64,000 bases of DNA, taken from the NCBI RefSeq assembly GCF_024713975.1, contig NC_091096.1, positions 17,270,458-17,334,457 on the forward strand, written 5' to 3'. The notes beneath the pieces are model-generated. The model made no database searches. It was given only the letters and a program-made list of their open reading frames with translations, and had not been told where the DNA came from. Of this stretch, positions 54,762-61,568 are shown piece by piece (position 1 is the first letter of the stretch; every line of letters starts with the position of its first letter). Made by a program: the position numbers and the translations under genes. The stretch comes from Paralichthys olivaceus. Taxonomy: Eukaryota > Chordata > Actinopteri > Pleuronectiformes > Paralichthyidae.

Positions 54762-57700
54762 TCAGAAATCCTCCCAGTTTGTGTGCAGCTCTGCAGAGTC
54801 CACGGTGTAATCACCACAGACACTGCTGTCGGAGGGATGCTTCACCTGAAGGACGAGACAAAAATCAACAAAACAATCTGGGCCTCTGCTCACTGGTTTA
54901 TCACAAAACAACAAGACAAACACAAAGTGTCTTACTTTGGGAATAAGTGGGGCATTTAATGTTTTTTTACAAAGTCCTTCCCAGTCGAATCCTTCAAACC
55001 ATCTGAATGAAACAAGAACAACAGAGCATCACAGCCTGTCGGAGCGTGTTGTTTCCAAGCTAAGGCCTCAGAGCAGTGTTTTTCTCCAGTGTAATAAATG
55101 TGTTGCCTCACTTGTGCTTGTGGATGTCCTTGGCCCCATTTCTGAGACTGCCCAGTCTCTGCGAGGGTCTGCTCCTTGGTGACGGAGGGCAGAAAAGGAA
55201 AACACAGATAAATAAACTATGAAATAATAATCAGATTCTGTCTTTTCAAAAGATGGTGTCACTTCAAAGGTCGGCTCCAATACACCTGCACCATCTCTTA
55301 ATGTGCTGCTGCTGTCTGTCTGTGTGTGTGTTTGGGCTGGAGGAGAGGCGATGTGTGAATATATAGACGTAGATGTAGATATAGATATAAATATAGATAT
55401 CCTATAGATAGATATACACATAGATATAGATATAAAAACAGATATGGTATAAAATGGCTGGTATAAAAAGGCTATATATAGATAAAAAGATATAGATATG
55501 ATAGATAGGTAGGTAAGTAGGTACTAGGTGAGTCCTTTATTAACATTCACATAATTATTTATGTGAGTTGTTTGATTTGTCACCTGCACAGTTTCCTTAT
55601 GAGACTGGAGGCACTTGTGCTGATGTTCTTGGGGAAGTCGATCTGATCGATGCCACCAATGGTTGCAGTGAGAATATTCATTGTGTCAGAGCCATTGAAC
55701 GGGAGCCTGGAGAGAAAAAAACAAAACAACCTGTCACCATCACTTTAATCTGCAATGCAACAGATGAGCTGAAAAACTTGAAACACTCACCTACCACTCA
55801 GCAGCTCAAACACAAAGACGCCCAGCGACCAGAAGTCTGCAGACAGACTGTGGCCTCTGATCAGGATGATTTCAGGTGCCATGTAGCCCAGTGAGCCACA
55901 GAACGTCCAGGTTCTCTTACCCACCTCCACCTGCTTCACACATCTGGTGCCAATCTGCAAAACGCACACATCAGTACAGATTCAGTTCAACTGAAAATTA
56001 AATAATCAATTATTTAAAACAGAGTAATCACAATTATGAATTTTAGCTTGTAACGAGCTGTAGCACCAGTTTGGCATAACCGTGCTGGTCCAGAACAACA
56101 TTTTCAGGCTTGACGTCTCTGTAGATGACACCTCGAGAGTGGAGAAAGGTCAAGGCCTCCACAACACAAGCTGTGTAGAACCTGGTGCTGCACTCGTCCA
56201 AACATCCTCTGAAACAGTATGCAGGAGAGCTGATTTAAACAAATATGTGATGGAAAACATCAGACCCTGGTTATTGGAATAAAATGAAAGCTATGATTAT
56301 AAATATTTTATCAGTGTGATGACAAAACGTCTTGAATTTTAATTTCTTGCAATCCAAAAATACTTACTTATCTGTGAGCAGACTGAATAAATCCCCACCA
56401 AGACAAGCCTCTGTCAACATGTACAGACACTCAGGCTCTCTGAAGGTTTTATGTAGCCTGCAATCAACAGGTTAACAATATTTTTAATCATCAACATATT
56501 AAAATATTATTTAAATAAACATGTTTATTAGATAAGTATTGCCAGACACCTGACAATGAATGGACAGTGAGTGTCCATGAGGATGCGCCCCTCTCTCAGG
56601 ATGTGCTCTCGTTGACCACTGTTGAGAATCAGCTTCTTCTTCAGGACCCTCATGGCATAAAGACAATTGATGTCGCTCTTTAGTTTTACCTGACGGAGGT
56701 GAAAGTCAGTAGAGGACATTACAGAAACATGGACCCTCCTGTGGAATCACAGTGTAGCACGGGTTAATATCAACTCTCACCAGATCTACGTGACCAAACT
56801 CCTCAGCTGCTAGAGTGCAAAGGATGTGGAAATCACTTAAGGTGGAGGATGAGAGGAGCCCGTCATCCTCATCTGACCTGCCCACAAGGGAAACTGGGGT
56901 GAGATGATATCTTGTTTTTTCTATAGGTGCCGATAAAATGTATTTCTTGTACCAATCAGTATCGTAATTCTCCTCACTCGACTTTGGAGTCACGGCTCTG
57001 CTGCATCTCGTCGCTGCAGCCAAACACCAACCCGTCGATGACGTCTTTAAAACTCCTGCAACACAGAAACATTTGTGTCATATACTGTTATTCACAAGGG
57101 TAGGGGCATGAACCAAGGAAGAACCCATTCAATTTGGTGCAGATCCAGGAATTTGTGTTTCTTAACATAGAGAGATAGATGGTCTTTTCCATATTTTTAT
57201 TGATTTCTGAGAGAATAATTTATGGATATGATGAAAACTGAACCGATATTCATGAGCGCGTGTAATTTGGTGCAGATCCAATGATGAAATGTGGTTTCGT
57301 GAGGAGAAGGTATTCGACCACTTACTGTCTGTCTATTACCAAGCAGGTAACTTGACCAGCAGCAACCACACTCACAGTGTGAGCTTCTTCTCTAAAGAAA
57401 TAAAAACATAACATCATCAATGCAAAGGACAAACTTACAAAGAGAATTTATTTATTAATATCATACCAAGGTCACTTTTCAGCCTCATTTTCATAAAAGC
57501 TGCTGAAAACTAGACATAATTTCCTTTACAGCATCTTGTTAAGGTCTATTATTTCCTTCCTCTTACCCCCACAGAGCTTTTTCTCCAAACCACTGTCTCT
57601 CAGAGAGCTTAGAAAGGACTGTGTGCTCCTCGTGCCCTGGCTTCTTTTCAGTCACTGTCACCTACCAAATCAAAAGGAGAAGTCATGGGAAAGGACGCCT

Positions 57701-60700: not shown

Positions 60701-61568
60701 TCATCTCACTGAAGTGTTAATGATGTAGACAGAAGTGTGAAGTATCCTGCAGTTTGATTAATGGTAGCTGGTGCAAGAAAGAAATGATTCACCTTCTAAA
60801 ATGAAAGCCTGGGCCCCGGTGGTTCCCTCCTGAATGACATAGCAGCCTTGATTGATGGTGGTGGGATACATGCAGGCGATGACGGCTTCTGTTTCTCCTT
60901 CGTCAAGGTTCTTCAACAAGTTGTTTTTCAAAAATGCTGCCTGTATCAGCCTGTGGGCCCTATGGAGAAAAAAGTCACATTTAAGTTAAATTCAGTGTCA
61001 GAGTGTCACAGTGTTTGGAAATGTTTAGAAATGTTGTATTTGTTCTGAGTCTGACAGAAGCGGTTGGATATAGCCTTGAATATTTGTGAGGCAGATCTTT
61101 TCAGTGTGAGCAGGTGGGGGCTGAGGGAACGCTGTGTGCTCTTACGCCTGACTTTTGTCACAGCAGCTTCTCTGTGAAACCATGGCCAGATTCACCGAAT
61201 CCGGACTGAAGGGCTCAGAAATGACTGTCTTTCTTTTGGCTCCGTCCTCGAATTGAGCTGAGCAAGCTAGTGAGACAAATAAAGGACACACATGGGTAAA
61301 AAGCTTTACCTCAGGTTTTGGGGGCTTGTGCTGCCTCTTTGTTTGAGTCAAAATGTGACATTTAAAAGCAGCATGTACCTGCACTGGCTGCAGAGGGTCC
61401 TGGGAGGGAGACGGGGGCTCTGTGGCGATCCAGCTCGTCCTGGAGTCGGCGAATAAGTTCATCCTTGGTGTCCAGCTCCAGCTCTAACTCGTCTATCAGC
61501 GTGTCCCTCTGGCGAAGCTCCTCGATCTTTAGCTGCAGGGCAAATTGGAGGTCCCGCAGTGTCCCCAT
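54762..61568 (-). CDS. cGMP-dependent protein kinase family member, predicted pseudokinase
   Basis: Nineteen coding exons: 61568-61379, 61257-61146, 60959-60793, 60455-60342, 58817-58712, 58324-58261, 57937-57860, 57661-57567, 57391-57326, 57055-56978, 56877-56781, 56689-56550, 56457-56368, 56208-56067, 55954-55791, 55706-55584, 55174-55112, 55002-54936, 54845-54762. Phases agree; no stop or frameshift; 679 aa (human PKG1-beta 686). Domains: leucine zipper 1-46 starting MGTLRDLQ as in PKG1-beta; autoinhibitory KRKTVISEP 71-79; two cyclic-nucleotide domains (about 100-215 and 230-335); kinase domain about 373-635; tail ending NWEDF. Active PKG phosphorylates Ser/Thr when cGMP binds. Here the phosphate-cassette Arg is His in both binding domains (189, 313), the Gly loop is LAAEEFGHV (379-387), the VAIK Lys is Arg403 and DFG is GTR (515-517). 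YRDVKPEN (495-502) and APE remain. The donor after coding exon 14 (GTGCTA) is weak. Likely a PKG1 paralogue; teleost prkg3 is a guess. Family certain, dead kinase likely. Confidence 0.93.
55360..55520. repeat. Imperfect (ATAGAT/GATA)n tract in PKG-family intron
   Basis: Degenerate GATA-related tandem sequence with GTAGATATAGATATAAATATAG and AGATAGGTAGGTAAGTAGGTA, within the intron between coding exons 16 and 17. Confidence 0.75.
57100..57300 (+). repeat. Dispersed fish repeat, copy 2
   Basis: Shares GGAAGAACCCATTCAATTTGG, GTGCAGATCCAGGAATTT, TTTCTGAGAGAATAATTTATGGAT and AATTTGGTGCAGATCCAATG with the element at 40956-41258. It lies in the intron between coding exons 9 and 10 of the PKG-family gene. 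Confidence 0.6.
58818..60341 (-). other. Intron between coding exons 4 and 5 of the PKG-family gene
   Basis: 1.5 kb; the largest intron between coding exons of this gene. No exon, repeat or RNA gene recognised. Confidence 0.7.

Follow-up and report, generated by a model that had tools for sequence, protein, structure and literature searches.

Introduction

Human PKG Ibeta (PRKG1; PDB 7lv3 and 3nmd), a cGMP-dependent protein kinase, is composed of a leucine zipper, an autoinhibitory (AI) region, two cyclic nucleotide-binding domains (CNBs) and an AGC kinase domain. The same parts are found in the protein encoded by a gene in a 64,000-nucleotide stretch of Paralichthys olivaceus DNA (NC_091096.1, positions 17,270,458 to 17,334,457; the whole stretch is called the window), whereas the two cassette arginines, the Gly-loop, the beta-3 Lys, the DFG motif, the pseudosubstrate Ala and the tail FDxFP of PKG Ibeta are missing from it. 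Our reading, which we hold with about even confidence, is that this gene encodes a kinase-dead, cGMP-blind PKG paralogue that acts through a zipper of the PKG Ibeta type.

A pseudokinase is defined as a kinase-like protein in which at least one of the beta-3 Lys, the HRD Asp and the DFG Asp is missing (PMC4718504). In VRK3, which has an active close relative in VRK2, the site is likewise degraded while the kinase fold is conserved (PMC2639636); the window protein differs in that it is a PKG and has probably lost a second class of ligand, cGMP. In zebrafish, prkg1l is listed as a third PKG1-type gene beside prkg1a and prkg1b (PMC12498267). It may be orthologous to the window gene, on C4, to the closest relative of that gene in the same genome, on C18, or to both. 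Among the open-access papers listed, which were mostly represented by titles and abstract openings and left most subscription papers outside, no report of a PKG-family pseudokinase was found; the three mentions of pseudokinases in PMC6694467 concern guanylyl cyclases.

Results and discussion

Gene model and resemblance to PKG

The gene and its domains are as follows.

54762..61568, minus strand: predicted pseudokinase gene of the prkg1l type, with 19 coding exons (gene model, open frame)
61419..61565, minus strand: leucine zipper of the PKG Ibeta type, residues 2-50 (matches PDB 3nmd, the PKG dimerisation domain)
58765..60958, minus strand: CNB-A, residues 105-215, over several exons (alignment and Pfam cNMP_binding)
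57037..58722, minus strand: CNB-B, residues 230-340, over several exons (alignment and Pfam cNMP_binding)
54999..56837, minus strand: AGC-type kinase domain, residues 374-634, over several exons (Pfam Pkinase)

All 18 introns are GT-AG with matching phases, and there is no internal stop codon. A previous sequence-only reading of this DNA had given the same 19 coding exons, with matching phases and free of stops, and re-reading the sequence bears this out; the protein, however, has 682 amino acids instead of the 679 that it gave, since the coding sequence is 2049 nucleotides long including the stop. In a phmmer search of PDB sequences the best match was human PKG Ibeta (7lv3, residues 72-673, E 9.1e-195), so the resemblance to PKG is beyond chance. 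Pfam models found the kinase domain (Pkinase, 185.5 bits; cut-off 31.7) and, at two places in the protein, cNMP_binding; the PKG coiled-coil model reached 26.8 bits, under its cut-off of 35. Among the prokaryotic models of NCBIfam, 13 families matched, every one below its cut-off. Having the zipper, the AI region, CNB-A, CNB-B and the AGC kinase domain, and branching among the PKGs, the gene belongs to the PKGs by descent. Judged from its sequence, the protein is a PKG by descent and architecture that fails the functional residues of PKG and falls under the definition of a pseudokinase.

The kinase site

The kinase-domain motifs and the tail read as follows.

56793..56810, minus strand: degenerate Gly-rich loop AAEEFG, six codons (the six aligned relatives have TLG[VM]GGF)
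56648..56650, minus strand: beta-3 Lys replaced by Arg406 (AMR) (sequence)
56100..56123, minus strand: catalytic loop YRDVKPEN, kept (sequence)
55943..55951, minus strand: DFG replaced by GTR, the DFG Asp being Gly518 (sequence)
55883..55897, minus strand: P+1 loop GTPEY replaced by GSLGY (alignment and sequence)
54762..54845, minus strand: last exon, without the AGC-tail FDxFP and without the acidic end (compared with the C18 copy and human PKG1)

Two of the three residues that define a pseudokinase are changed (Arg406 and Gly518) and the HRD Asp is retained. The catalytic Lys, DFG and Gly-loop with which a PKG functions are all missing. The sequence-only reading had called the gene intact and its product a predicted pseudokinase, and both parts agree with the open gene model and with the sequence definition. 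The codons that it gave for Arg and GTR were found at the same coordinates, and YRDVKPEN, the alpha-C Glu (Glu425) and APE persist in the translated sequence as it said; D500, K502 and N505 of the catalytic loop are also kept. Its Gly-loop sequence was right and its coordinates (56787-56813) were slightly too wide. The AGC-type tail that it described as conserved is so in part: the FDxFP segment, which lies within SNFDSFPEDND in human PKG1 and NFDYFPEDTE in the C18 copy, is lost. The change in the P+1 loop had escaped it. The kinase fold is likely retained, to judge from the sequence.

Some kinases with altered motifs, such as WNK, CASK and haspin, are active, and the window protein might be an atypical active kinase of this sort. 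The residues kept in the catalytic loop and alpha-C would fit, and precedents are described in PMC4718504, but the Gly-loop, the Lys, the Asp and Phe of DFG and the tail FDxFP have been lost jointly and the P+1 loop is altered, and we regard activity as very unlikely. It is more improbable still that an artefact of the assembly or of the gene model conceals normal exons. That the sequence comes from a single assembly speaks for it, but exon lengths equal those of two fish prkg1 copies in the 15 exons compared, the unusual residues are scattered across several exons, and no DFG-like codons occur in the three minus-strand frames of 54701-57100. The absence of DFG, DYG and DLG from these frames rules out an alternative exon in that range that would restore the motif. 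The idea that the window contains the kinase exons twice was also rejected, as only one set matched.

The cGMP sites and the autoinhibitory region

Three further changes, which the sequence-only reading had missed, lie N-terminal to the kinase domain.

61211..61237, minus strand: altered autoinhibitory sequence KRKTVISEP (human KRQAISAEP)
60358..60360, minus strand: phosphate-binding Arg192 of CNB-A replaced by His (H192) (alignment and sequence)
57379..57381, minus strand: phosphate-binding Arg of CNB-B replaced by His316 (alignment and sequence)

Arg192 of PKG Ibeta holds the cyclic phosphate (PMC3080414), and the cassette Arg is described as conserved across all CNBs (PMC9417419). In the window protein the cassette Glu is kept in both CNBs and the Arg is His in both, so that the residues by which a PKG binds cGMP are incomplete. 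The ability to bind cGMP has probably gone too, in which case the protein is not simply a dead kinase under cGMP control. In the AI region the pseudosubstrate Ala, the residue before P+1, is Thr77 and the P+1 Ile is Val.

Alternatively, the protein may be a trans regulator through its regulatory (R) part: a CNB and AI region locked in the unliganded state would dock on the catalytic domain of an active PKG1-type chain in a heterodimer and inhibit it, or the Thr at the pseudosubstrate position (KRKT) would make it a substrate of PKA or PKG. The residues at the tip of CNB-A that are named at the regulatory:catalytic (R:C) interface, L184, L187, Y188 and N189, are kept, KRKT would be compatible with a basophilic phosphorylation site, and pairing would be possible through the zipper. 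However, R209, which organises the R:C interface in PKG Ibeta, is Cys, the change of the P+1 Ile does not favour such docking, and autoinhibition of PKG Ibeta is proposed to occur within one chain, which leaves trans action conjectural. We think this regulatory role quite unlikely.

The leucine zipper

The zipper keeps 38 of the 39 positions that are invariant in three other copies, whereas the same kind of count gave 88 of 142 for the CNBs and 140 of 226 for the kinase domain (62% outside the zipper); the difference from the zipper has a Fisher p of 2.9e-6 for the CNBs and 1.4e-6 for the kinase. Compared with the C18 copy, 43 of 49 zipper residues are identical, and the proportions of nonsynonymous and synonymous differences are pN 0.077 and pS 0.67. 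The zipper had already been recognised as retained, and its constraint proves to be above that of the rest of the protein. In PKG I, zippers serve homodimerisation and the recruitment of isoform-specific partners (PMC9417419), and binding of IRAG1 involves acidic residues of the Ibeta zipper (PMC10298018).

Relatives in the same genome

Searching the genome with the protein gave a close relative on C18 (locus L009), PRKG1-like genes on C21 and C14, and three more distant PKGs at C4:2.10 Mb, C14:3.33 Mb and on C19. The C18 copy keeps what the window gene has lost: the cassettes CTRT and DVRT, the ALK Lys, VDFG, KRQAISAEP and the FDYFP tail are all intact, and its Gly-loop keeps GMGGF with Ser for the third loop Gly. 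A protein tree was made of seven sequences over exons 3-9 and 11-18, with human PKG1 taken from PDB. Exons 1, 2, 10 and 19 were omitted here and in the codon and invariance analyses, and so was the whole of the PRKG2-like gene at C4:2.10 Mb, in which exons 3 and 11 were not found. For the C14:3.33 Mb and C19 genes the 5' part of the exon 11 model is doubtful, and the C21 region contains 2,500 N, its exons 10 and 19 not being found. In this tree the window gene is sister to the C18 copy with an ultrafast bootstrap of 98 (88 with the CNBs alone, 89 with the kinase alone), and two alternative placements were rejected by the approximately unbiased test (p 0.040 and 0.018, LG+G4). The clade of human PKG1, C21 and C14 excludes this pair (97 with all exons, 98 with the CNBs, 75 with the kinase), which places the window gene outside the PRKG1 orthologues and rules out its assignment to prkg1a or prkg1b. 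The nearest relative in this genome is the C18 copy, with its intact motifs, and not Prkg1, with which the sequence-only reading had compared the gene. Because human PKG1, C21 and C14 exclude it, the C4/C18 pair looks older than the split of fish and human PRKG1, and the duplication that gave the C4 and C18 copies would have come later.

The branch of the window gene is 4.7 times as long as that of C18 (0.73 and 0.15 amino acid substitutions per site), and unique changes number 58 against 13 in the CNBs and 89 against 15 in the kinase.

The C18 copy lies among genes that we take, from their sequences, to be WDR45-, STC1- and FGFR-like. Searched in the genome, the STC1-like query has its clearest other match at C4:17162794-17163608, some 107 kb to the left of the window. 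For the FGFR-like query, a match at C4:20.32 Mb is accompanied by others on C12, C14 and C15; the WDR45-like query has matches on C18 only. These matches lend modest support to a duplicated C4/C18 block of the kind that the teleost genome duplication would leave. Presumably the C4/C18 pair belongs to the human 8p/10q paralogon.

Several features of the relatives were noted in passing. The C18 copy has an apparent extra short intron within exon 3 (L009, about 2771-3015) and an apparent N-terminal extension ahead of GTLRDLQ. The PKG-like gene on C19 (L025/L026, C19:11.74-11.75 Mb) is divergent, with 34-55% identity to the other copies by block and intact DFG and cassette arginines; we presume that it may be the gene called prkg3 in fish. 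At C16:20148346-20915584, six single-frame kinase matches of almost equal score form two clusters, which may mark an expanded kinase family. A pattern scan of viral contigs for exon 15 gave 28 matches, none of them confirmed.

Selection or decay

Among the columns identical in the six other PKGs, the window protein keeps 126 of 177, that is 44 of 61 (72%) in the CNBs and 82 of 116 (71%) in the kinase, and 51 are changed. The C18 copy, counted by leaving it out in turn, keeps 61 of 66 and 116 of 124. Neutral decay was simulated in 12,000 runs, 4,000 for each of three indel rates, a procedure that needs no synonymous rate (dS). By the time that the simulated genes met their first disabling event (a stop, a frameshift or the loss of a splice site), the number of altered codons among the 177 had reached 27, 20 and 10 at the most (means 2.4, 1.5 and 1.0), against 51 in the open-frame window gene, so most of the changes arose while selection held the reading frame. 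Decay from the start is ruled out by this result. At 16 active-site, cassette and P+1 positions, a set picked after the alignment was seen, the replacements look neutral (mean BLOSUM score -0.94, expected -0.78). The remaining 35 changed invariant positions carry conservative replacements (0.40, expected -0.55), with a mean that none of 5,000 simulations attained. Since the changes outside the ligand sites are conservative, the folds are probably kept. The G+C content at third codon positions (GC3) is 0.60, that of the introns 0.40. Decay alone is therefore unlikely as an explanation, in agreement with the statement of the sequence-only reading that the gene does not look like a decaying pseudogene.

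With a home-made branch codon model, the ratio of nonsynonymous to synonymous rates (omega) came out at 0.18 for the branch of the window gene and 0.046 for that of C18; both are rough values, because synonymous sites are saturated. Overall, both an omega of 1 (twice the log-likelihood difference, 2dlnL, 18.6) and equality with C18 (6.8) were rejected; of the blocks taken singly, the kinase block rejected an omega of 1 (20.8) and the CNB block rejected equality with C18 (6.3).

The strongest competitor of the reading proposed here is a relaxed, dispensable duplicate, which would have lost its functions gradually after the duplication and be on the way out, the open frame being residual. The long branch, the omega raised above that of C18 overall and in the CNB block, where it is indistinguishable from 1, and the change of 51 of the 177 invariant columns, in both blocks, all suit it. 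Against it stand the intact frame and 36 of 36 splice ends, the shortfall of the neutral simulation, the conservative changes outside the sites, the kept zipper and a GC3 that remains above the G+C content of the introns. On balance we find it unlikely, though still a serious possibility.

Besides the saturation of synonymous sites and the late choice of the 16 positions, several points weigh against the main reading. The CNB block by itself does not reject an omega of 1 (2dlnL 2.4), and over the kinase block the window gene (0.074) and C18 (0.068) do not differ in omega (2dlnL 0.01). Counted by leaving it out in turn, the C19 gene, whose motifs are intact, keeps 61 of 91 CNB and 116 of 161 kinase columns (67% and 72%); as it loses invariant columns as often, the sheer amount of change is not special. 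Changes hit 7 of 14 ligand or catalytic positions and 44 of 163 others, an enrichment that is suggestive but not significant (p = 0.069), and radical changes occur outside the sites as well (R209C, P572L, H412L and N548I). The GC3 of the window gene is the lowest of six copies (0.62-0.74 in the others), the invariance of the zipper is based on three other copies only, and the synteny test gave a clear C4/C18 pair for the STC1-like query only. A very recent loss of function, or a recent end of selection, is compatible with all these data.

Possible role

If the window gene does encode a kinase-dead and cGMP-blind paralogue, the following course is plausible. The window gene and the C18 gene would be the two copies, in fish, of a third, prkg1l-like, PKG1-type gene, and the duplication would have copied at least an STC1-like neighbour with it. 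The C18 copy would have retained the catalytic and cGMP-site motifs that the C4 copy lost. With the Gly-loop, the beta-3 Lys and DFG gone, productive binding of Mg-ATP is predicted to be lost, and with both phosphate-cassette arginines gone, so is normal binding of cGMP. The protein may then act by contact: through its zipper it would form pairs, either between its own chains or with active PKG1-type chains, and may occupy docking partners such as IRAG1-like proteins. In this role it would serve, constitutively and independently of cGMP, as a scaffold or competitor by which PKG signalling is lowered or localised. The sequence-only reading had proposed that it may be a scaffold, a decoy or a dominant-negative partner of active PKG1.

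In CNB-A of PKG Ialpha, a change of the cassette Arg to Gln gives constitutive activity (PMC9417419). Because a change of this Arg can switch a live PKG I on, death of the kinase probably came before, or alongside, the loss of the arginines. A wider and more tentative version, which we doubt, is that a whole branch of fishes carries a conserved pseudo-PKG, in which cGMP sensing and catalysis were lost, the kinase again dying before or alongside the loss of the arginines, and the zipper and folds were kept by selection. Such a protein would work on the nitric oxide/cGMP pathway as a constitutive brake or as an address label.

The weight of the finding hinges on whether other fishes share the predicted dead PKG gene. 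If real, it would be a natural experiment in which docking by PKG is parted from catalysis and sensing, a case in which constraint has relaxed at two distinct ligand sites within one protein, and a cGMP-blind, kinase-dead tool for studies of PKG anchoring.

The 5' region and neighbouring genes

Upstream of the coding exons one further feature was recognised.

62441..62600, minus strand: candidate 5' non-coding exon in a local GC-rich stretch (sequence reading and GC profile; the 62600 end is arbitrary)

An acceptor, tatttgcag|gaaATG, lies at 61572/61571, three bases ahead of the ATG, and a strong donor, CACGTG|gtgagtg, lies at 62441/62440 in the GC-rich stretch; together they suggest a leading non-coding exon ahead of the coding exons. 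A bacterial-type promoter scan of 62400-62900, unsuited to a vertebrate gene, gave nothing usable. Two repeats were spotted by eye: a long (TATC)n microsatellite at about 61970-62055 of the window, in the presumed first intron, and an array of AT-rich units (atatctcagaataatgact-like) at about 63200-63750, upstream of the PKG gene.

Downstream of the PKG gene, at about 43218-49522 of the window on the minus strand, there are exons of a gene like those for long-chain acyl-CoA synthetases, which we take to be ACSL-like from its motifs. Among the 10 matches listed, its relatives are on C15, C8, C9 and C21, with none on C18. An open reading frame of the EGR zinc-finger type lies at 5314-6444 on the plus strand and is, we assume, EGR3-like. 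Among the matches listed, those on C18 are short zinc-finger matches only, and the next-best by E-value are on C21 (56% identity) and C14 (61%).

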